DNA of 11,055 nt from a candidate division CSSED10-310 bacterium (GTDB lineage Bacteria; CSSED10-310; JAFGDC01): the NCBI GenBank assembly GCA_016932295.1, contig JAFGDC010000609.1, positions 1 to 11,055 of the forward strand. Direction: 5' to 3'. The translations under genes were made by a program, and so were the position numbers. This document shows positions 2,935-10,825 of this stretch, one piece after another. How positions within the stretch are numbered: the stretch's first letter is position 1; each line of letters begins with the position of its first letter. The notes beneath the pieces were generated by a model, which ran no database searches, was not told the DNA's origin, and saw only the letters and a list, made by a program, of their open reading frames with translations.

Positions 2935-3017
2935 TTTGCGGTGAATCGTTGACACCAAATGCCTTGCTACAGTCATTTCTTTCTTCAACCAGGTCGATTC
3001 ACCGGTTTTTTTTAACA

Positions 3018-3094
3018 GGAGCCAAGTGCTCCGGGGACGGAGCCAAGTGCTCCGGGGACGGAGCCAAGTGCTCCGGGGACGGAGCTGTCTCCCC
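3018..3094. repeat. Three perfect 21-bp tandem repeats plus partial fourth, each hairpin-forming
   Basis: Units at 3018-3038, 3039-3059 and 3060-3080 are identical. Each is the dyad GGAGC-CAAGT-GCTCC followed by GGGGAC. A degenerate fourth unit starts with GGAGCTGTCTCC (3081-3092). GCTCC of one unit can also pair with GGAGC of the next around a GGGGAC loop, so two alternative folds exist. GGGGA (3075-3079) can pair with TCCCC (3090-3094). The units are contiguous with no variable spacers, so this is not a CRISPR array. Confidence 0.9.
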
Positions 3095-3168
3095 TGAAAT
3101 GCATCCACAAGATCTGCATGAGACTCCTCCCAATCACAGGTGGTGGATGTGGTGATTTCTTTTCCAAC

Positions 3169-3293: not shown

Positions 3294-4331
3294 ATGATGA
3301 TGAAGCTGGGCGAAATGATGATGCTGGACGAGGTGATTACCCAGGACGAGCTGGACAAGGCTCTTGAACGACAGAAAGTGATGGGCGGCCGGATCGGGAC
3401 AAACTTGCTGGAGTTAGGGTATGTGACGGAGAACCAGGTGGTTCAGTATCTCGCCAGGCAACGAAATGTTCCCCCCATGCCACCGGGCGTTCTGGATTTC
3501 GTCAGTGACAAGGTGATCGCCACCATACCCCTGCAGATCGCCCAGGACAGCAAGGTGATCCCCTTCAAACGGGAACGGAACCAGCTCCATGTCGCCATGG
3601 CTGATCCGCTCGATCTCGCTGCCATCGATGCCCTGGGTTTCATTGCCGGTTCAACAATAAAGATCTACATCACCGCCGAGGCGAGGATCATCTACTCGCT
3701 GCAGAAGTATTACAAAGTGAATCCCAAGTTCCGCTACCAGCAGCTTATCAAAAAACTCGACACAAAAGCCGACACTCAACAGAGAAGGGTCACTCCGCCC
3801 CGCTTCACCGATTCAGCAAAACTCGCCAAGGAGAAACCCAAAAAAACCACCATCGAAGTCCTGCTGAACGGTGAAAGCAGACGCAAGATACTCGGCGCCA
3901 TGTGCGAAGCACTCACCCCCCTCTGTGAACGGGTGCTGATCTACATCATCGACAAACACACCATTGCATTTTGGGATGACGTGATAGAGTTCAACAGCGA
4001 ACAGAAAGGTGAACTGCTCAACCTGGACTTGCAGGAGGACTCGTTCCTCAAGGATTTCATCGGTTCCAGCGAGCCGTTCTGTGGACCCATTCCACCCAAT
4101 GAACGTAATTCGAAACTCATCGGCGCTCTGGGTGATCTCTATCCCGTGAACGCCGTGGTAATGCCCCTGGTGCTCGGGAAACACAGCTACGGCATCGTTT
4201 ACTGCGACAATCTTCTCTCCAGCGAACCCATCAAGAATTTCGATGCGTTCAAGAAAATCCACCTCATGGCTCTCTATTCGGTCAAGATTTACTACCTCAA
4301 GAAACGAATTACCGAACTCAGCGAGTCGTGA
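3294..4331 (+). CDS. MshEN-domain (c-di-GMP-binding type) protein with C-terminal GAF-like domain
   Basis: 345 residues, with GGGAGGA 7 nt upstream of the first of three consecutive ATG codons (3294, 3297, 3300). The N-terminus is an MshEN / GspE N-terminal domain. Two adjacent 24-residue motifs are visible, K4-Q27 (LG..M...VIT...L..ALERQ) and R33-Q56 (RIG..L...GYVT...V..YLARQ). These match the RLGxxL...G...L...LxxQ motif known to bind c-di-GMP in MshE-type ATPases. The domain continues to about residue 145 (IPLQIAQ, VAMADPLDLAAIDAL). No Walker ATPase domain follows. Instead, after a basic linker (about 150-185), residues 190-340 look like a GAF-like domain (CGPIPP, VVMPLVLGKHSYGIVYCDN). The protein is therefore a likely soluble sensor or adaptor, not a secretion ATPase. 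It lies 74 nt upstream of the FliG-like gene and sctL, probably in the same operon, which hints at c-di-GMP control of the T3SS (inference). Confidence 0.88.
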   Translation: MMMKLGEMMMLDEVITQDELDKALERQKVMGGRIGTNLLELGYVTENQVVQYLARQRNVPPMPPGVLDFVSDKVIATIPLQIAQDSKVIPFKRERNQLHVAMADPLDLAAIDALGFIAGSTIKIYITAEARIIYSLQKYYKVNPKFRYQQLIKKLDTKADTQQRRVTPPRFTDSAKLAKEKPKKTTIEVLLNGESRRKILGAMCEALTPLCERVLIYIIDKHTIAFWDDVIEFNSEQKGELLNLDLQEDSFLKDFIGSSEPFCGPIPPNERNSKLIGALGDLYPVNAVVMPLVLGKHSYGIVYCDNLLSSEPIKNFDAFKKIHLMALYSVKIYYLKKRITELSES

Positions 4332-4405: not shown

Positions 4406-4942
4406 ATGAGTGCCGGAAACAACGCCACTGGTCCCGCCGGAGAGTCGGGCGACGAGCTACTGGCTGTCCTGTTGGTCATGTTCGTGCCGGAGCCATTGAG
4501 CCTGCTGCCTTTCCTCCGACCCGATGAATCAATACGACTGGCAAACTGGCTCGAAAGCAATAAAAGCATCGACGCGAACACCCTACACCATCTTCTTGCA
4601 GCCAATGTCACCATGGCACCGGTACCTCCCGGAAGGATTCCCGGCAGTGCACTGGAAAGCTGCATCGAATGGCTGTCCCGAGAACGCAGTACGGTGGTGA
4701 AAGCAGCTCTCAAGCTGCTACCCATGGAGCAGGCGGAATCCATCCTCGCCCGCCTGCCCGATGAGCTGAAGACCATGTGTCGGAAGTGCGGAGTCAAGGA
4801 AGAAGAGGGCCTCGACCATCACATTCGAACAGTGATCCGCTCGTACCTTTGCGCGCATGTGAGTGTTGGAGACCGTGGCGAGCGCCGTCCAGAAGCGGCG
4901 AACAGCCTTCACCGGATCAACCATGAAGGAGATCGAGGATGA
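4406..4942 (+). CDS. Small FliG-like protein upstream of sctL (SctK-like position)
   Basis: 178 residues overlapping sctL by ATGA, so the two are translationally coupled. Two stretches recall the helical repeats of the flagellar switch protein FliG: LLPFLRPDESIRLANWLESN (33-52), like the FliG N-terminal domain, and ALKLLPMEQAESILARLPDE (101-120), like the middle-domain L..LP.E.A..IL..LPDE pattern. No FliG C-terminal motor domain is present, and full FliG proteins are about 330 residues. The position is telling: flagellar loci run fliF-fliG-fliH, and here the gene sits directly before the FliH homologue. In injectisomes the poorly conserved SctK occupies this role in the sorting platform. The FliG resemblance is from motif reading only. 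The ATG at 4406 has only a distant GGAG (4391-4394), so a start inside the N-terminal 25 residues is possible. Confidence 0.72.
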   Translation: MSAGNNATGPAGESGDELLAVLLVMFVPEPLSLLPFLRPDESIRLANWLESNKSIDANTLHHLLAANVTMAPVPPGRIPGSALESCIEWLSRERSTVVKAALKLLPMEQAESILARLPDELKTMCRKCGVKEEEGLDHHIRTVIRSYLCAHVSVGDRGERRPEAANSLHRINHEGDRG

Positions 4943-5550
4943 AGACCGAGCAACATCCACCAGACACTGGAGGACAGCCCGAAGCGAGCGATTTGATCAT
5001 CGATGCTGAATGCTATGCGGCTCGCGAGGAGGCGGCGCGCATAGTGGCCAGAGCCCAGGCTGAAGCTGCAGCCATTCTCGGTGCGGCGGCCGCTGAACTG
5101 GAATCGATGCGGCGCAAGGGATATGAAGAAGGTTACCGCCGGGCGATTGATGAAAGCCTGCAACTGCTCACCAGCGCCAAGCGGATAAGGACCGCCTACC
5201 GGGAAGAACATGCCAGGGATATCATCAGGATCGCACTCAAGGCAGCCGGCAAAATAATCGGCAGAGAAATCAAACAACAGCCGTCCACAACGGCATCAAT
5301 TGTGGAGCAAGTGTTGGCCGCCGCCCGTTCCAGAGAGCAGATCACCGTGCTGGTCAATCCCCGTGACCTCGAACAGGTGATCACGGCACGCCCCAGGTTG
5401 ATCGCAATGGTGGGGCGAGCCAGGGAGTTCACTATCCGAGGCGACGTGGCGGTCAAACGGGGAGGATGCATCATCGAGACCGAGCTGGGTGCCATCAATG
5501 GCGAACTCGAAAGCCAGCTCAACAGGCTGGAGGAAACGCTTACAAGCTGA
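4939..5550 (+). CDS. sctL: Type III secretion stator protein SctL (FliH/YscL family)
   Basis: 203 residues, the usual size for SctL. SctL dimers tether the ATPase SctN to the cytoplasmic sorting platform and restrain its activity. The N-terminal half is an Ala/Glu-rich helix (27-60) of the FliH/V-ATPase-E type, followed by the typical GYEEGY (61-66). Residues 93-112 (RDIIRIALKAAGKIIGREIK) and 135-145 (ITVLVNPRDLE) match the conserved C-terminal globular part. GGCIIETELGAING (175-188) is the family's most recognisable motif. The ATG overlaps the previous stop (ATGA). Unusually, sctL is not next to sctN: the substrate-like gene and regulatory genes lie between them. No terminator is obvious after the stop. 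Confidence 0.94.
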   Translation: MKTEQHPPDTGGQPEASDLIIDAECYAAREEAARIVARAQAEAAAILGAAAAELESMRRKGYEEGYRRAIDESLQLLTSAKRIRTAYREEHARDIIRIALKAAGKIIGREIKQQPSTTASIVEQVLAAARSREQITVLVNPRDLEQVITARPRLIAMVGRAREFTIRGDVAVKRGGCIIETELGAINGELESQLNRLEETLTS

Positions 5551-5767
5551 CACCGAGTGGTCCCGGTCGCCCGTTTCGCGTCGCACGATTCCGGAATCAG
5601 GCGTTCCCATCGAAACCACCCGCGCATCAGCGTGGCACTCCTTCCCTACTGCGCCATCCTTTCCATGCCATGAGGTGAAGAGCCGCTGGATTTCCAGGGG
5701 ATGCACAGACAGGATGTCGAGCCGTGAATCGAATGGCATTCCAATGAAAAAAAAGTCTGTTCGGTAC

Positions 5768-5794
5768 GCAACTTTTTCAAAAAGACACCGATAA
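5768..5794 (+). promoter_or_regulatory. Candidate sigma-28 (FliA)-type promoter
   Basis: ACCGATAA (5787-5794) matches the sigma-28 -10 consensus GCCGATAA at 7 of 8 positions. GCAACTTT (5768-5775), at exactly the canonical 11-bp spacing, matches TAAAGTTT at 5 of 8. Transcription would start near 5800, at the first base of a stem-loop. The locus encodes a FliA-like sigma factor at 7093, a natural candidate to read this promoter. Motif-based; not tested. Confidence 0.55.
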
Positions 5795-5799
5795 CAGTA

Positions 5800-5819
5800 G
5801 TGAGTTCGAAAGAACTCGT
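5800..5819 (+). promoter_or_regulatory. 5' leader stem-loop with GAAA tetraloop
   Basis: GAGTTC (5802-5807) and GAACTC (5812-5817) pair perfectly around a GAAA tetraloop, and two outer G-U pairs extend the stem to 8 bp. It sits at the predicted 5' end of the transcript and 17 nt before the AGGAGGT ribosome-binding site. 5'-terminal stem-loops of this kind are known to protect bacterial mRNAs, as in ompA; that role here is inference. Confidence 0.5.
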
Positions 5820-5849
5820 AACCTGAAACCTTTCGAGGAGGTAACAATT

Positions 5850-6263
5850 ATGTCAGCAATCAACAACGTCACCATCAGGACATTCAATCAGACGGCAGCC
5901 GCGACGCGGCGAAGCGGCTCGAGTGGATTCGCGACGTTCCTCAAGGCAGCGGGGAAAACGCTGGGAGCAGCAGGTCGGGCCGCCGCCCCCTTCATCCCGG
6001 GTGGACCTATCGTGCAGGCAGCCATCGAAGGCGCGGCCGCCGGGGCTTCCGACGCAGCCATGGTACAGCAGGCCGGCACCAACACTGGCACCACCAACGG
6101 CAACTATGATTCCGGCACCGGCACCGAGAGCGGCATGAGCATGTCAGAAGCGCTTGCCATGCAAATCCGCATCCAGAAAGAAGTGGTCATGTTCTCGACG
6201 CTCTCCAACGTTGCCAAAGCCCGTCACGATGCATCGATGTCGGCCGTCCGGAACATCAAGTGA
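5850..6263 (+). CDS. Small T3SS-associated protein, probable secreted substrate or filament subunit
   Basis: 137 residues with a near-ideal AGGAGGT ribosome-binding site (5836-5842), so strong translation is expected. The N-terminus (1-30) is rich in Ser, Thr, Asn and Ala, like many T3SS export signals. Residues 28-75 are Gly/Ala-rich and weakly hydrophobic (GFATFLKAAGKTLGAAGRAA, then a GP-containing turn). Residues 76-95 are a Gly/Thr/Asn linker. The C-terminal 40 residues form a predicted amphipathic helix (QIRIQKEVVMFSTLSNVAKA, ending AVRNIK). There is no Cys and no signal peptide. T3SS rod and needle subunits also polymerise through a C-terminal helix, so a needle, second rod or tip-type substrate is plausible, but the rod SctI is already encoded at 7838 and I cannot assign a family. 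The gene stands alone between its own candidate promoter and a hairpin. Confidence 0.85.
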   Translation: MSAINNVTIRTFNQTAAATRRSGSSGFATFLKAAGKTLGAAGRAAAPFIPGGPIVQAAIEGAAAGASDAAMVQQAGTNTGTTNGNYDSGTGTESGMSMSEALAMQIRIQKEVVMFSTLSNVAKARHDASMSAVRNIK

Positions 6264-6300
6264 ATACCCGCCCCGATTCTCTTCACCAGCTTCATAACGC

Positions 6301-6337
6301 ACCTGATGCAGCGCACCATCTTAGCGCTGCATCAGGT
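6301..6337 (+). terminator. Long perfect hairpin 38 nt after the substrate-like gene
   Basis: ACCTGATGCAGCGC (6301-6314) and GCGCTGCATCAGGT (6324-6337) form a perfect 14-bp stem around a 9-nt loop. No T tract follows (ttgcatggcg), so it is not a classical intrinsic terminator. It could be a Rho-independent-like pause, a processing site or a 3' stabiliser that isolates the 5850 transcript from the downstream operon. Confidence 0.6.
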
Positions 6338-6402
6338 TGCATGGCGAACGGGTATCACCTGAAAGAATTAGTAACAAATAACTACAAATCATCTGATCCG
6401 TT

Positions 6403-6411
6403 TGGTATAAT
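6403..6411 (+). promoter_or_regulatory. Extended -10 promoter for the sigma factor / sctIJNO operon
   Basis: TGGTATAAT contains a perfect TATAAT (6406-6411) preceded by the TGn extension, lying in AT-rich DNA. The -35 position (TACAAA at 6383-6388, 17-bp spacing) is poor, as usual for extended -10 promoters. Transcription would start near 6418, heading into the operon. This looks like a housekeeping-sigma promoter, distinct from the sigma-28 type at 5768. Confidence 0.6.
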
Positions 6412-6426
6412 AAAGTCACAATCACA

Positions 6427-6492: not shown

Positions 6493-6720
6493 ATGGCGAC
6501 CGATACCGTGAAGCATGAACGCATCGTCCGGATGGCTGGAACCAGAGAGTGTGCAATGAAAGAAATGGGCGGTTCGGGGTATGGATGGGAGAGTGGGGCA
6601 TCTACCGGGAGGAGCCGCGGGGCGGCGGCGCCTGAACAAGCCGTGTTGCGCTGGGGCCGGCCGGTGAGTGCCGGAAGGCGGGAGGAGAGGTCTCAAGATG
6701 ACAATCCCATTGCTTCCTGA
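6493..6720 (+). CDS. Doubtful small ORF upstream of the helical protein gene
   Basis: 75 codons from an ATG at 6493 preceded by GGGGTGGAG, though the GGAG is only 2 nt away. The N-terminal third (MATDTVKHERIVRMAGTREC) could be helical. The remainder is Gly/Arg-rich and runs through the ribosome-binding site and first codons of the next gene. It may be a small real protein, a translated leader, or chance. No family is recognised. Confidence 0.22.
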   Translation: MATDTVKHERIVRMAGTRECAMKEMGGSGYGWESGASTGRSRGAAAPEQAVLRWGRPVSAGRREERSQDDNPIAS

Positions 6721-7096
6721 TCCATCGAAAAAGATCGGCGGGATTCGACCTCCCGCCAATCTCGACAAGGCGAAAGGTCCAGGTGGCGCTGATTTCGCGG
6801 CGCTGGTCACACCGCGATCCGTTGCGCCGGATGCTTCCACAGGTCCTTCGAACTATCTGGATTCCATCAAGTCCGTTATCGGCACCAGCGGCGCAATGGA
6901 CCGGGCAGACAGGAAAAATGAAGTGATCAGGCTCACCGTCGATCGAATAATCGAGGACAGCAATCTCGTGCGGTCATTGCCCGGAGATGCCCGGACGGTG
7001 TTGAGGGATCGGCTCACCGAGTATCTCGGAGGGGATCCGCTTTTCAATTCGAAACTTGAATCCCTGCTTGACCGAATCGAGGAATCGCTGTCGTGA
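6698..7096 (+). CDS. Small protein coupled to the sigma factor; candidate FlgM-like anti-sigma or export regulator
   Basis: 132 residues from the ATG at 6698, chosen because GGAGGAGAGG (6681-6690) lies 7 nt upstream; a GTG at 6668 has no such site. Residues 1-70 are rich in Pro, Gly, Ala and Asp and look disordered. Residues 71-130 form several amphipathic helices (NEVIRLTVDRIIEDSNLVRS, then LRDRLTEYLGGDP and LESLLDRIEESL). The stop overlaps the sigma factor start as GTGA, indicating coupled translation in a fixed ratio. A disordered N-terminus plus a helical C-terminus, encoded next to a FliA-like sigma factor, is the layout of FlgM, the anti-sigma factor exported by flagella. I see no clear FlgM sequence signature, so this is an analogy from context and architecture. 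A chaperone or other small T3SS protein is equally possible. Confidence 0.82.
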   Translation: MTIPLLPDPSKKIGGIRPPANLDKAKGPGGADFAALVTPRSVAPDASTGPSNYLDSIKSVIGTSGAMDRADRKNEVIRLTVDRIIEDSNLVRSLPGDARTVLRDRLTEYLGGDPLFNSKLESLLDRIEESLS

Positions 7097-7821
7097 CCTG
7101 GGTGATGTGGAGTGATTTCGGACCCATGTTGGAGGTGGTCCAGCGCCGGCGACGCGACGCCCTGGTGGAGGGACATCTGGAATATGCCCGGCAGATCGCC
7201 AGGCGGATTCATCGCAGCCTCGGCTTGCGGATCGAATTGTCCGAGCTGGATGCGTGGGGCAGACTCGGATTGCTGCAGGCTGCGGGCAGTTACGACCATG
7301 GGGGCGGCAGCAGTTTCAAGACATTCGCCCACTACCGGATTCGGGGAGCCATCTATGACGGACTCCGCCAGATCGGCTGTCTGACACGCGATCAGTACGC
7401 AAAAGTGAAGTTCTCCAGCCGGGCTGATGATCTCATGAGCGCGGAATCGTCCGCGACCAGGACCGAATGCTCTGAAACACTGGAACAGAAGGCTGGTCGA
7501 TTACTGTCGATTGCATCGGATCTGGTGCCCGTGTTCCTGCTTTCCTGCGAGGGGACCCAGGACCTTACCAGCGGGATGGAGGATGGAGGTAAATCTCCTG
7601 AGGAAGAAGTGTCCTTGAGTGAGGAACGGGCGATATTGGCGGATCTGATGGAGGGATTGAGTGATCGCGAGCGGTTGTTGATCACGATGTACTACTACCA
7701 GGACAAACCGCTCAGCGACGTGGCTCAGGAACTGCGTTTATCCAAGTCCTGGGTGTCGCGAATGCACAACACGGTAATCCGCAAGCTGCGCGACCGCATG
7801 CGTGAACGCGGCTGTGCATAG
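7093..7821 (+). CDS. Sigma-28 (FliA)-like alternative sigma factor within the T3SS locus
   Basis: 242 residues, close to the usual FliA length of about 240. Region 2 spans about 23-95: ELDAWGRLGLLQAAGSYDHG (51-70) for core binding, then SFKTFAHYRIRGAIYDGLRQ (74-93). The second holds the RIRGA..D.LR signature of sigma-28 factors in the -10-reading helix. Region 4 spans about 176-236, with a helix-turn-helix at 207-233 (LSDVAQELRLSKSWVSRMHN) for -35 recognition. Region 3, between about 100 and 170, is strongly diverged: the usual LGR.PT..EIA pattern of FliA is absent and a polar Ser/Glu/Thr-rich stretch replaces it. The GTG start at 7093 overlaps the previous stop; an ATG at 7105 is an alternative. 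It probably directs RNA polymerase to T3SS promoters such as that at 5768. A normal flagellar role is less likely because the neighbours are injectisome genes. Confidence 0.92.
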   Translation: MTWVMWSDFGPMLEVVQRRRRDALVEGHLEYARQIARRIHRSLGLRIELSELDAWGRLGLLQAAGSYDHGGGSSFKTFAHYRIRGAIYDGLRQIGCLTRDQYAKVKFSSRADDLMSAESSATRTECSETLEQKAGRLLSIASDLVPVFLLSCEGTQDLTSGMEDGGKSPEEEVSLSEERAILADLMEGLSDRERLLITMYYYQDKPLSDVAQELRLSKSWVSRMHNTVIRKLRDRMRERGCA

Positions 7822-7837: not shown

Positions 7838-8221
7838 ATGGCCATACAGGGGATGCATTCCATGCAACGAATCAGTTCCCGGATACCTGCTGGGACTGAT
7901 TCAGTGGCTGGACCGTCACGATCGTTCAATCAAGTGCTTGGCGCCGAACGCAATGGACTGCGGCCGGATAGAGGGCCGGAGGGCACACTTTCGAATGCAT
8001 GTGTCAGGACATTGCATGAAGTTCTTGATGCCGTGGTGCATGGTCAGGCCCAGGTCAGCAGGATAGTTGACCTGGCCTTGAACGGTAAAACATTTTCACA
8101 ACAGGAACTTTTAGTACTGCAAACCGGGATGTACAGCTTCATCCAGGAGTTGGAACTTACCAGCAAGGTGGTCGAACAGGTCACGAATGGTATCAAGACC
8201 ACCATGCAAACGCAGGTATGA
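7838..8221 (+). CDS. sctI: Type III secretion inner rod protein SctI (YscI/PrgJ family)
   Basis: 127 residues from the ATG at 7838, preceded by AAGGGGGG (7826-7833) and 16 nt after the sigma factor stop. An upstream ATG at 7802 would overlap the sigma gene and lacks a ribosome-binding site. The diagnostic part is the C-terminal helix (about 84-127). FSQQELLVLQTGMYSFIQEL then LTSKVVEQVTNGIKTTMQTQ matches the SctI pattern of an L-Q-rich helix followed by SKVVE..T.GI...L.TQ at the extreme C-terminus. SctI is exported early and polymerises into the rod linking the export gate to the needle. The N-terminal half is polar and variable, as in the family. The stop overlaps sctJ as ATGA, and the sctI-sctJ adjacency is the standard injectisome order. 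Confidence 0.9.
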   Translation: MAIQGMHSMQRISSRIPAGTDSVAGPSRSFNQVLGAERNGLRPDRGPEGTLSNACVRTLHEVLDAVVHGQAQVSRIVDLALNGKTFSQQELLVLQTGMYSFIQELELTSKVVEQVTNGIKTTMQTQV

Positions 8222-9024
8222 CCATGACACCTTGGCCGCAATCAACCACGCGCGCAGCAGACAGGGTACCCGTCCTCCTGCTGCTGGGGCTCGCGCTGCT
8301 GGCGGCGGGATGTGACACCACGCTGCTCCACGGCCTCGATGAACGGGCCGCAAACGAGATAATCGTTGTAATGGAGCAGTCTGGCATCAAGTGCAGGAAA
8401 ATCGAGGAGCATGGCGATCGAGGCAGTACATGGGCGGTATCCGTGCCACGAGGTCATGCACCTGAAGCGTGGCGGTTGTTGCGTGACCGGGATCTGCCGA
8501 GGAAAGAGGAACAGGGATTCGCCGAGGTGTTCGCCAAAAAGGGATTGATACCCACCACCATGGAGGAGAAGGCGATGATGTTGCATGCGCTGAGTGGTGA
8601 GTTGTCCCACACCATCGAGACGATCGAAGGCATTGTGGATGCCCGTGTCCACCTGGTGATACCAGAGGTGAGTGAGTACCTTGGTCAGGAGGAACTTCTT
8701 CCCGAGCCATCAGCGGCCGTATTGGCCAAATACCGCACCGAGCCGGCCGTGGGTGTCGGGCAGATTGCAGTCCTGGTGGCTCATAGTGTCCAGGGATTGT
8801 CGCCGGATCGCGTCTCGGTGCTTCTCGTGCCCCAGGATCCCATAGAGAGTAACGGACCCGCCATTGTAAGTTTCATGGGAATCGAGACAACGTCCGCTTC
8901 CTGGCCACGCCTGCGCGGCCTTGCCCTGGCGGCGGCGGTGCTGCTGGTACTTTCCTGGGGCTTGACGGTGCTCCTCGCTATCCGCCAATTCCTGGCGGTG
9001 CGGCGTCATCAGGAAACCCCATGA
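8218..9024 (+). CDS. sctJ: Type III secretion inner-membrane ring lipoprotein SctJ (YscJ/PrgK family)
   Basis: 268 residues, typical for SctJ. Residues 17-32 are a lipoprotein signal ending in LAAGC with the acylated Cys at 32, so the protein is lipid-anchored on the periplasmic face of the inner membrane. Ring-building motif 1 covers about 36-105, including [20 protein letters not shown] and the family landmark [14 protein letters not shown] (92-105). Ring-building motif 2 covers about 115-205, with [20 protein letters not shown] and [10 protein letters not shown] (141-150). A C-terminal membrane helix spans about 233-256 and is followed by a short basic tail. SctJ forms the inner MS-like ring with SctD. 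The lipobox distinguishes it from flagellar FliF and confirms a non-flagellar system. The ATG at 8218 overlaps sctI; an ATG at 8224 is possible. The stop overlaps sctN as ATGA. Confidence 0.97.
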
Positions 9025-10346
9025 ACCAGCCACACTTTGACAGCGCCGGCATCCTGGAGAAATTGGAGTCAGCCTCACCGCTTACCGCCCGCGGGCGCAT
9101 CACCGAGGTTGTCGGCCTGGTCATCCGGGCAGCCGTACCTGGAGTGCGGATCGGTGAACTCTGCCGCATCGAAGACCCTGGTTCCGATTCACACACCTAT
9201 GCCGAAGTCGCCGGATTCAAAGACAATCAGGTCATCCTCATGGCCCTGGAACGTATTACCGGCATCGGGCCTGACAGCGTCATATTCCCCACGGGTCGAT
9301 CATTGCGAATCCGAGTGGGCGAGCATCTCCTGGGCCGGGTATTGGATGCGCTCGGCAGACCGCTTGACGGTTGCGCTGTAGATTCCGGCGTCGATCAACC
9401 GGTCATGGCGCCACCACCAGCGCCCTTGCAGCGCCAATTGATAACCAGCCCGCTGCAGGTAGGCATCAAGGCGATCGACGGTCTGCTCACGTGCGGCGAA
9501 GGCCAGCGCATGGGATTCTTCGGCGCGGCGGGTGGCGGCAAGAGTACGTTGTTGGGCATGATCGCACGCAATACGTCAGCGGATGTGAATGTCATCGGGC
9601 TGATCGGCGAACGCGGCCGGGAAGTCCGCGAGTTCATCGAACACTCTCTTGGCGATGGGGGCCTCGAAAAATCGATCCTGGTCGTCTCAACCTCGGATCA
9701 ACCGGCCATGCTTCGTATCAAGTCAGCATATGTCGCCACCGCGATCGCTGAATACTTCCGTGATCGCGGCAAACGCGTCCTGCTCATGATGGACTCCATC
9801 ACCAGGTTCGCCAGGGCTCTTCGCGAAGTCGGGCTGGCCATCGGCGAACCACCGGCGCGAGAGGGATACCCGCCGTCCGTGTTTTCCACGTTACCGCGCC
9901 TGCTGGAGCGCGCAGGGACGTCTCAGACCGGCTCCATCACCGGTTTCTACACCGTGCTGGTGGCTGGTGACGATCTGACTGAACCGATCGCCGATGAAGT
10001 CATGTCCATCCTCGATGGACACATTATTCTTTCCCGGGAGTTGGGGGCGCGAGGTCATTACCCCGCCATCGATGTGCTGCGCAGCAAGAGCCGCGTGATG
10101 TCGCAGATCGTGAGTCCCAGGCAGTTGCAGGCTGCGCGTAACGTTCTCAGCTCCCTGGCGGTATATGAAAAGGAACGTGATTTTATCCACATCGGAGCTT
10201 ACAAGACCGGCTCAAATCCGGTAATCGATACCGCAATTTCGGCGGAACCGGCGATTTCCAGGTTTCTGCGCCAAGCGCCAGGGGATTTGTCAACGTTCCC
10301 TGACACGGTGGATCAATTGTGCACGCTGGCGGAGAGGCACTGTTGA
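9021..10346 (+). CDS. sctN: Type III secretion ATPase SctN (FliI/YscN family)
   Basis: 441 residues, the normal size. SctN is the hexameric cytoplasmic ATPase that releases substrates from chaperones and helps drive export. The N-terminal beta-barrel spans about 20-95, followed by [13 protein letters not shown] (105-117). Walker A is GAAGGGKST (168-176) with Lys174; most relatives have GVGKS, so the glycine-rich form is a mild variation. [13 protein letters not shown] (193-205) contains the catalytic Glu197. Walker B is RVLLMMDS (252-259) with Asp258, followed by [20 protein letters not shown] (260-279) and [18 protein letters not shown] (282-299), both highly conserved. The C-terminal helical domain spans about 365-441. 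All catalytic residues are present, so it should be active. Flagellar FliI is an alternative only in principle, because the neighbours sctI and lipoprotein sctJ define an injectisome. Confidence 0.98.
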
Positions 10347-10825
10347 AACACCGGGACTATCCTCTGAATGCCCTGCTCAAGCTGCGGGCCTATGTCAAGG
10401 AGACGAATGCGCAGACCTTCAAGGAAGTGCATGAACGCCTCGACGAAGCGCTCGCCACGCGCCGCGAACTCCAGGAGCGGTTGGGACGACTGGCAAGGAG
10501 GAAAGGGGAATTGCATGAACACTTGCTGGTCACCTCCAGGCCTGTCTCAGAACACGGCCGCTCGATCCATGATTATGCCAGCAATGTAAAATCATTGAAC
10601 GATCATATGCGAAGTCTCGAAAAGGATCTCCAGGCGCAGGATTCGATTATCCGGGAAATTAATATCCAGTTGGAACGGCACCGTGAGGATCTTCGCGATT
10701 CCTTGCGTGACGAAAGGGTGGTGGAACTCCATAAAACCAAGTGGAACCAGGAACGCCGGCGCACGGAGAAGCGAGACGAGGCAAAGCGGCTTGATGAACA
10801 TTCATCAGGCAGGGATACGAGGTAG
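10343..10825 (+). CDS. sctO: Type III secretion stalk protein SctO (FliJ/YscO family)
   Basis: 160 residues from a TTG at 10343 that overlaps the sctN stop (TTGA) and has GGAGAGG (10331-10337) 5 nt upstream. A GTG at 10319 would add eight residues with a weaker site. The protein begins [14 protein letters not shown], close to the family opening, and is then an almost continuous charged coiled coil (about residues 10-150, rich in Arg, Glu, Leu and Gln). SctO inserts as the central stalk of the SctN hexamer, couples it to the export gate SctV and recycles chaperones. Its size, coiled-coil nature and position directly after sctN make the call secure even though family sequence conservation is low. 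Confidence 0.88.

Follow-up and report, generated by a model that had tools for sequence, protein, structure and literature searches.

In the flagellar FliA (sigma-28)/FlgM system, a FliA-family sigma factor reads promoters with the -10 element NCCGATAA placed 11 nt from the -35 element TAAAGTTT, a late axial subunit is among the targets, and a small gene lies beside that of the sigma factor. HrpL and BtrS are ECF-type sigma factors dedicated to injectisomes, and the hrp regulon includes a pilin gene together with dispersed effectors. Chlamydial sigma-28 is a FliA-family sigma factor of a bacterium with an injectisome and without a flagellum. HrpL of plant-associated bacteria is a dedicated sigma factor whose promoter box stands ahead of type III secretion genes (PMC5263251, PMC2957411), and in Bordetella the injectisome-specific BtrS has a secreted antagonist, BtrA, which couples expression to secretion (PMC10732220). 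Chlamydial sigma-28 bound only the hctB and tsp promoters in ChIP-seq (PMC12282069), and knock-down likewise pointed to hctB and tsp (PMC10597470). Injectisomes are considered flagellum-derived, and a survey from 2012, the main text of which mentions neither sigma nor FliA, reported non-flagellar systems only in Chlamydiae, Proteobacteria and Verrucomicrobia (PMC3459982). Among open-licence papers, mostly at the level of abstracts, no FliA-family sigma factor dedicated to an injectisome was found.

The window, meaning the whole stretch of 11,055 nucleotides analysed, contains a section of an injectisome (type III secretion) locus according to gene and family assignments. Its features are the following:

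4939..5550, + strand: sctL, stator protein (PF02108 above cut-off; TIGR02499 E 8e-20, slightly below cut-off)
5768..5775, + strand: -35 element GCAACTTT of the injectisome box (read directly; part of an exact match to GMAACTTT-N12-CCGATAA; top matrix match with the window left out)
5787..5794, + strand: -10 element ACCGATAA (read directly; consensus scan, refined pattern and matrix)
5800, + strand: predicted, approximate transcription start (from the position of the -10)
5802..5817, + strand: GAAA-capped stem-loop of 6 bp at the 5' end of the leader (fold z -2.1; no equivalent in the leaders of eight relatives)
5835..5841, + strand: ribosome-binding site GAGGAGG (read directly)
5850..6263, + strand: sctF-like gene for a probable 137-aa needle or pilin-type axial subunit (homologues upstream of sctI-sctJ in other injectisomes)
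6301..6337, no strand: perfect 14-bp hairpin without a U-tract (arms 6301-6314 and 6324-6337)
6698..7096, + strand: ORF of 132 aa, candidate secreted anti-sigma factor (putative function; 4-nt overlap with the sigma gene)
7093..7821, + strand: FliA-family sigma factor of the injectisome-side group (TIGR02479 E 5e-34; PF04542/PF04545; tree)
7838..8221, + strand: sctI, inner-rod protein (PF17001 E 7.8e-5, below curated cut-off; order sctI-sctJ)
8218..9024, + strand: sctJ, inner-ring lipoprotein (TIGR02544 E 1.5e-44, slightly below cut-off; PF01514)
9021..10346, + strand: sctN, export ATPase (PF00006, PF18269)
10319..10825, + strand: sctO/FliJ-like stalk protein (TIGR02473 E 2.4e-7, below cut-off)

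The window resembles the flagellar system in its FliA-family sigma factor, the -10 element, the 11-nt spacing, a putative late axial subunit as target and a small gene beside the sigma gene. It differs in that the sigma gene lies in an injectisome locus, the -35 element is GMAACTTT instead of the flagellar one, the apparent targets are injectisome and secreted-looking genes, and the small protein is something other than FlgM; of the 22 genomes examined, 18 gave no flagellin match, as far as incomplete assemblies allow. HrpL, too, is a dedicated sigma factor that goes with a box at type III secretion promoters, but it is of the ECF type and its box is unrelated. Also BtrS is injectisome-specific but of the ECF type, and the 132-aa protein of the window is a candidate antagonist only. 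Chlamydial sigma-28 shares the FliA family and the company of an injectisome, but it bound at hctB and tsp alone. Another machine has apparently taken over a control switch of the flagellar kind: with a probability of roughly 85%, positions 5768-5794 are a promoter for the sigma factor of 7093-7821, a member of an injectisome-tied group, which would drive the needle-like late gene and, in relatives, dispersed genes for secreted-looking proteins. If true, the flagellar late-gene switch serves a second machine in bacteria without flagellin.

Read directly, the -10 element matches GCCGATAA at seven of eight positions and lies 11 nt from the -35 element, which matches the flagellar -35 at five of eight; the -10 and the spacing are thus of the flagellar sigma-28 type, while the -35 is not. 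These three values had been given in the original prediction and were borne out, as were the ribosome-binding site ahead of the ATG at 5850 and the sigma gene some 0.8 kb downstream, which starts about 0.83 kb past the stop codon (6261-6263). Rather than a weak FliA element, the -35 is by comparison with relatives an exact copy of that in a lineage-specific box, GMAACTTT-N12-CCGATAA.

With thresholds of at least 7/8 for the -10, at least 5/8 for the -35 and a spacer of 10-12 nt, the consensus scan found the 5768 site, in two registers, as the sole site of the window. Shuffled sequences gave about 0.15 sites per such window, and this rate, together with the 5/8 match to the classical -35 consensus, would suit a chance or housekeeping match, the gene being read from upstream or by sigma-70. 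Such a reading is highly improbable given the conservation of the site at orthologous places and its enrichment across genomes described below, and the promoter scan listed no sigma-70-like promoter near 5700-5850. When scored with a matrix of the boxes of seven other genomes, the window left out, the site reached 26.2 bits and the runner-up 11.5 among the 22,058 window positions. Among 681,974 positions scanned in 17 injectisome loci that have no sigma gene alongside, drawn from 72 such loci among the best 80 of 473, none reached 26.2 bits. The refined pattern matched the window only once, without mismatches, even when three were permitted.

Two structures had been proposed to frame the gene. 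The leader stem-loop (GAGTTC-GAAA-GAACTC) is indeed GAAA-capped, but it has six Watson-Crick pairs and not eight base pairs, two extra G.U pairs being unused in the minimum-energy fold, and 6 of 200 shuffles were as stable. While the -35, the -10 and their spacing within 5768-5819 are conserved in relatives, a GAAA-capped stem at the 5' end was present in none of the eight relatives' leaders folded, and the stem-loop was rejected as a conserved 5' protector. The perfect 14-bp hairpin does start 38 nt past the stop codon (z -5.9; 0 of 200 shuffles equally stable). It is not followed by a run of T and hence does not classify as an intrinsic terminator, and its loop of 9 nt explains its omission from the terminator scan, which admits loops of 3-8 only. 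Also the hairpin was rejected as a general feature, as, out of 12 folded cases with a box or sigma, only three had z below -2, namely the window, G046 and G103. A TATAAT at about 6400-6415, past the hairpin, might serve the small ORF-sigma-sctI operon as a start of the sigma-70 type; the promoter scan of the window did not flag it.

The product of 7093-7821 contains sigma regions 2 and 4, and the FliA/WhiG model TIGR02479 was the best of 71 families (E 5.4e-34), with 117.9 bits against a curated cut-off of 189.6 bits, below which it thus remains. In a tree of 29 sigma factors, labelled by gene position and similarity and not by function, 22 injectisome-side sequences were split from seven flagellar-type ones with support 100/100. 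The window sigma was not among the flagellar FliA proteins of this tree; its branch is long, and support for its closest neighbours is weak. The injectisome-side group comprised 14 sequences in or near injectisome loci and eight that were the sole FliA-type sigma found in an injectisome genome, a 92-aa fragment from G226 being left out, and the flagellar-type group four from flagellin-bearing genomes, two beside a FlgM match (one below cut-off) and one unlabelled.

The box could be real and yet be read by an ordinary flagellar FliA encoded elsewhere, the sigma factor of the locus serving something else. The box shares its -10 with flagellar FliA promoters, and the sigma content of the window's host is seen from its contig alone. 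This alternative is nevertheless quite improbable given the many genomes in which flagellin was not found, and in 13 flagellin-less, sigma-bearing genomes just one FliA-family match apiece was found at E 1e-12. Furthermore, the flagellin -35 differs from the injectisome box: G314, which has both machines, carries TAAAGTTT-N12-TCCGATAA before one of its two flagellin genes, the other being without a good site, G014 has TAAAGTTT-N11-GTCGATAC, and G008 has TAAAACTC-N10-TCCGATAA at one of three flagellins, the remaining flagellins examined having weak or no sites. The flagellar word TAAAGTTT-N12-CCGATAA occurred in 10 copies in nine of 396 Acidobacteriota genomes, namely G314 (with flagellin), G226 and seven others, all with a FliF-sized match. 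The two boxes are thus largely found in separate genomes, and G314 has both. Co-occurrence and phylogeny suggest that the box is instead read by the neighbouring sigma factor.

For the relatives, an SctJ alignment was scanned against genome contigs of several phyla, and the best 80 of 473 loci were considered. By tblastn, 12 of these 80 had a relative of the 5850 gene, always upstream of sctI where both were seen, and eight had a FliA-family sigma near sctJ. Loci with a needle-like gene or sigma beside sctJ were labelled Acidobacteria, Fischerbacteria, Myxococcales/Anaeromyxobacter and Deltaproteobacteria, and one from Candidatus Fischerbacteria (L002) shares the window order of needle-like gene, small ORF, sigma, sctI and sctJ. 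Further searches of Acidobacteriota genomes added G034, G046, G274, G314, G353 and G226, with a sigma in or near an injectisome locus. The consensus scan of 11 sigma-bearing loci found a site immediately upstream of the needle-like gene in four of them, namely the window, L002, L119 (G034) and L128 (G046), one site elsewhere in each of L003, L004 and L024, and none in L001, L009, L023 and L028. The L003 site (11849-11875) lies in the 3' part of an sctT-like gene and was regarded as a probable chance match; the stretch 11849-11890 may still be real, as the homologous next gene in the genome of L001 (L298, G008) has a one-mismatch site too, so that two Acidobacteria show such a site before this gene.

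Of 17 sigma-bearing cases, the window included, nine had a FliA-consensus box ahead of the sctF homologue, against 0 of 12 others (Fisher p 0.0024), most of the latter being visibly GC-rich, which makes the AT-rich box less likely there by chance. The nine are the window, G001, G034, G046, G274, G314, G353, G051 and G038. Of the eight without a box at the fixed thresholds, G005, G064 and G103 have box variants, as does G172 outside the 17, and upstream of the needle-like homologues of G130, G047, G060, G226 and G003 none was recognised. The sigma-less cases, i.e. those in which the limits used gave no FliA-family match or only a match weaker than E 1e-18, are L006, L007, L010, L012, L013, L018, L021, L022, L026, L034, G014 and G207. 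Most sites carry G[CA]AAC at the -35 instead of TAAAG. G075 has the box, the needle-like gene and the 132-aa homologue, and no sigma was found in it; in G003 the sigma is on another contig. The G003 sigma (L326, G003:C241), from a Myxococcales genome, is of the injectisome type (E 5e-34), and the needle-like gene of this genome, in L005, is without a box.

The original prediction proposed to see whether motif matches cluster at injectisome genes, and a concentration in injectisome genomes was seen among the 396 Acidobacteriota genomes, where 23 of the 31 exact copies fell in 8 of the 19 genomes having an SctJ match with an SctJ-sized frame; the reversed pattern gave three matches. The remaining 11 of the 19 had no exact box. 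Outside the SctJ set the box occurred once each in 8 of 377 genomes, presumably mostly by chance; two of these have a FliA-family match (E 1e-19 to 1e-22), and six have none at E 1e-8. G310, counted among the others and without an exact box, could be a twentieth injectisome genome, having a 224-aa frame that matches the SctJ profile. If the 19 genomes make up a 0.05 share, as estimated from listed sizes, the chance of this enrichment is about 7e-24; the refined box was derived in part from genomes later counted, and with five needle-gene sites left out 18 of 26 exact boxes still lie in injectisome genomes (chance 4e-18). Together with the conservation in relatives, the enrichment lends good support to the proposal of a sigma-28-type promoter before a substrate-like gene and dedicated to the injectisome. 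The pattern would offer a simple sequence handle with which needle and substrate genes of uncultured Acidobacteriota could be predicted.

Allowing up to one mismatch, 77 sites were found in 17 of 22 genomes. The 15 flagellin-less genomes with sigma or box (G075 included) had 57 sites versus 7 for the reversed pattern, and the other seven 20 versus 5, including 13 versus 4 in G314 and 4 versus 0 in G008, where all four share a contig with the injectisome-side sigma. The 60 stretches fetched cover 62 of the 77 sites. A location 20-110 nt upstream of an ORF that has a ribosome site and 100 codons or more was recorded for 16 of 21 exact and 21 of 41 one-mismatch sites, compared with 679 of 4800 positions drawn at random from these stretches, leaving 25 of the 62 sites placed otherwise; one-mismatch sites before unrelated or doubtful ORFs (e.g. 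L254, L264, L268-L271) were kept in the counts.

The box is not confined to one gene, a correction to the original prediction, whose tie of the promoter logic to the injectisome stood. It precedes needle-like genes in G353, G274, G051 and G008 and the small-ORF family in G314; in addition, G353 and G274 share four gene pairs in which both related genes carry it. Also long low-complexity proteins are encoded behind it, which look secreted from their appearance only. A DUF1521 protein (PF07481, E 2.9e-15) adjoins the sigma in L128 (G046), behind a second box site, and a DUF1521 protein of G314 (E 5.6e-14) is likewise behind a box; both genes (L128 13752-14783; L255 435-1493) are near the sigma gene. 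A lipase-domain gene (L249) and genes whose starts resemble ordinary lipoprotein or signal peptides by eye (L279-L280, L282-L284) are among those behind box sites, and not every target therefore need be an injectisome substrate. Several box-associated proteins (L244, L290, L262) and the small-ORF family (window 6698) have by eye a similar M-x-I-D/S start, possibly a shared export signal.

The target gene at 5850 had been called substrate-like; it stood as the apparent promoter target, and its identity was corrected to a likely needle or pilin-type axial subunit, judged by position and C-terminus. The N-terminal part of the protein is variable and rich in Gly, Ala and Ser, the alignment shows the C-terminal helix to be conserved, AlphaFold was confident for helix 98-136 only, and the gene lies near the inner-rod and inner-ring genes as expected for SctF. 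It had no Pfam match, the needle model PF09392 included, and the assignment consequently rests on position and C-terminus, not on a family score. A protein search with it found one homologue besides itself (P0002, 34% over 97%), and a PDB profile search with the needle-like family gave no meaningful match.

A filament or translocator-type secreted substrate (EspA/HrpA-like) instead of a needle would leave the promoter reading unaffected. The length of 137 aa with its long variable N-terminal part would fit such a protein, as would the similar C-terminal motif ending a larger protein (L272), the several copies of 5850-type genes in some genomes, and the NCBIfam HrpA pilin model, which matches 4 of 14 members (best E 0.0047). 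It appears rather unlikely in view of the 5850-type gene being upstream of sctI in many loci and only 81 aa long in L002. Similarity to needles points the same way: the relative L018 matches PF09392 at E 0.0076, below cut-off, an iterated HMM with a lax inclusion limit joins shorter proteins, some of them Pfam needles (L070 E 1.4e-15, L031 E 4e-11), and hhalign aligned the 5850 family with a needle-like family over 36 columns (E 7e-5, probability 63). A single Holophagae locus (L031) has three frames with needle-like C-termini (1-129, 492-1037 and 8347-8790).

Searches with the 132-aa protein gave no Pfam match at E 10 and nothing above the NCBIfam cut-offs, and the protein is not FlgM by sequence (no PF04316; hhalign against five FlgM sequences E 0.15, probability 0.4). 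An AlphaFold model of it, run with two sequences, has a low-confidence N-terminal half and a helical C-terminal half; this predicted shape would fit an exported anti-sigma factor such as FlgM, without sequence relation, and with a mean pLDDT of 50 it was left out of the evidence. Its family comprised 17 sequences, of which 14 were aligned. Of 26 injectisome genomes, 16 had a member at E 0.05 or better (G001, G034, G046, G274, G314, G353, G051, G075, G038, G005, G047, G060, G064, G103, G130 and G172), and none was found in G226, G014, G207, G002, G003, G004, G006, G007, G008 and G009. Thirteen of the 16 contributed sequences to the alignment; the exceptions are G046, G038 and G172, the last two with close relatives in it. 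Over 381 Acidobacteriota genomes the profile recovered the same 16 and no other, all among the 19 SctJ genomes, and 15 of them have the injectisome sigma, G075 being the exception. In the window the small ORF and the sigma gene overlap, and in L002 they are directly adjacent. Loci are not all alike, as the Myxococcota and Sulfopaludibacter-type loci (L001, L003, L004, L009, L023, L024, L028) have a related sigma and the small ORF was not found in the three such genomes searched (G007, G008, G009).

The 132-aa protein may, speculatively, be a secreted anti-sigma factor whose sequence bears no relation to FlgM. A role as needle chaperone or assembly factor is about equally open, and we give it nearly an even chance. 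The small ORF follows the needle-like gene in several other genomes and in G034 adjoins sctI, behind a TPR gene, and injectisome-type sigmas occur without it in G226, G003, G007, G008 and G009, all of which, with the dissimilarity to FlgM, would suit a chaperone. Its restriction to SctJ genomes, nearly all with the injectisome sigma, fits such a role less well. Likewise, searches of G014, G207, G002 and G004, injectisome genomes without the sigma, gave no match to it, and in G047 and G060 it lies directly before the sigma gene on a contig other than that of sctJ.

Under the promoter reading preferred here, RNA polymerase with the FliA-family sigma of 7093-7821 would read 5768-5794, the injectisome-side sigma recognising GMAACTTT-N11-NCCGATAA, i.e. 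with the flagellar -10 retained and a different -35. The sctI-sctJ-sctN part would most likely be made first, after which the sigma would turn on the needle-like gene as a late gene through the box and, in relatives, also dispersed genes resembling secreted substrates. More speculatively, the 132-aa protein may keep the sigma inactive until the finished machine exports it. A complete checkpoint of the flagellar style, in which a FliA-family sigma with a -35 specificity of its own is restrained by small secreted anti-sigma factors of a new family, freed by working export, and then activates needle or filament and substrate genes genome-wide, is a tentative proposal that we consider somewhat short of even odds.

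An Rfam search of the window gave one sub-threshold match, taken as chance, a plasmid search with 5700-6340 gave no matches, and viral-contig scans with the needle-like gene and with SctJ found no relatives. A short in-frame tandem repeat (GAKCSGD) is present between genes at about 2949-3155 (ORF 2949-3155). At the edge of the injectisome genes, 3294-4331 encodes a 345-aa protein with an MshEN domain of the c-di-GMP-binding type (PF05157), and matches to this stretch are present in L005 and L026 near their needle-like genes.
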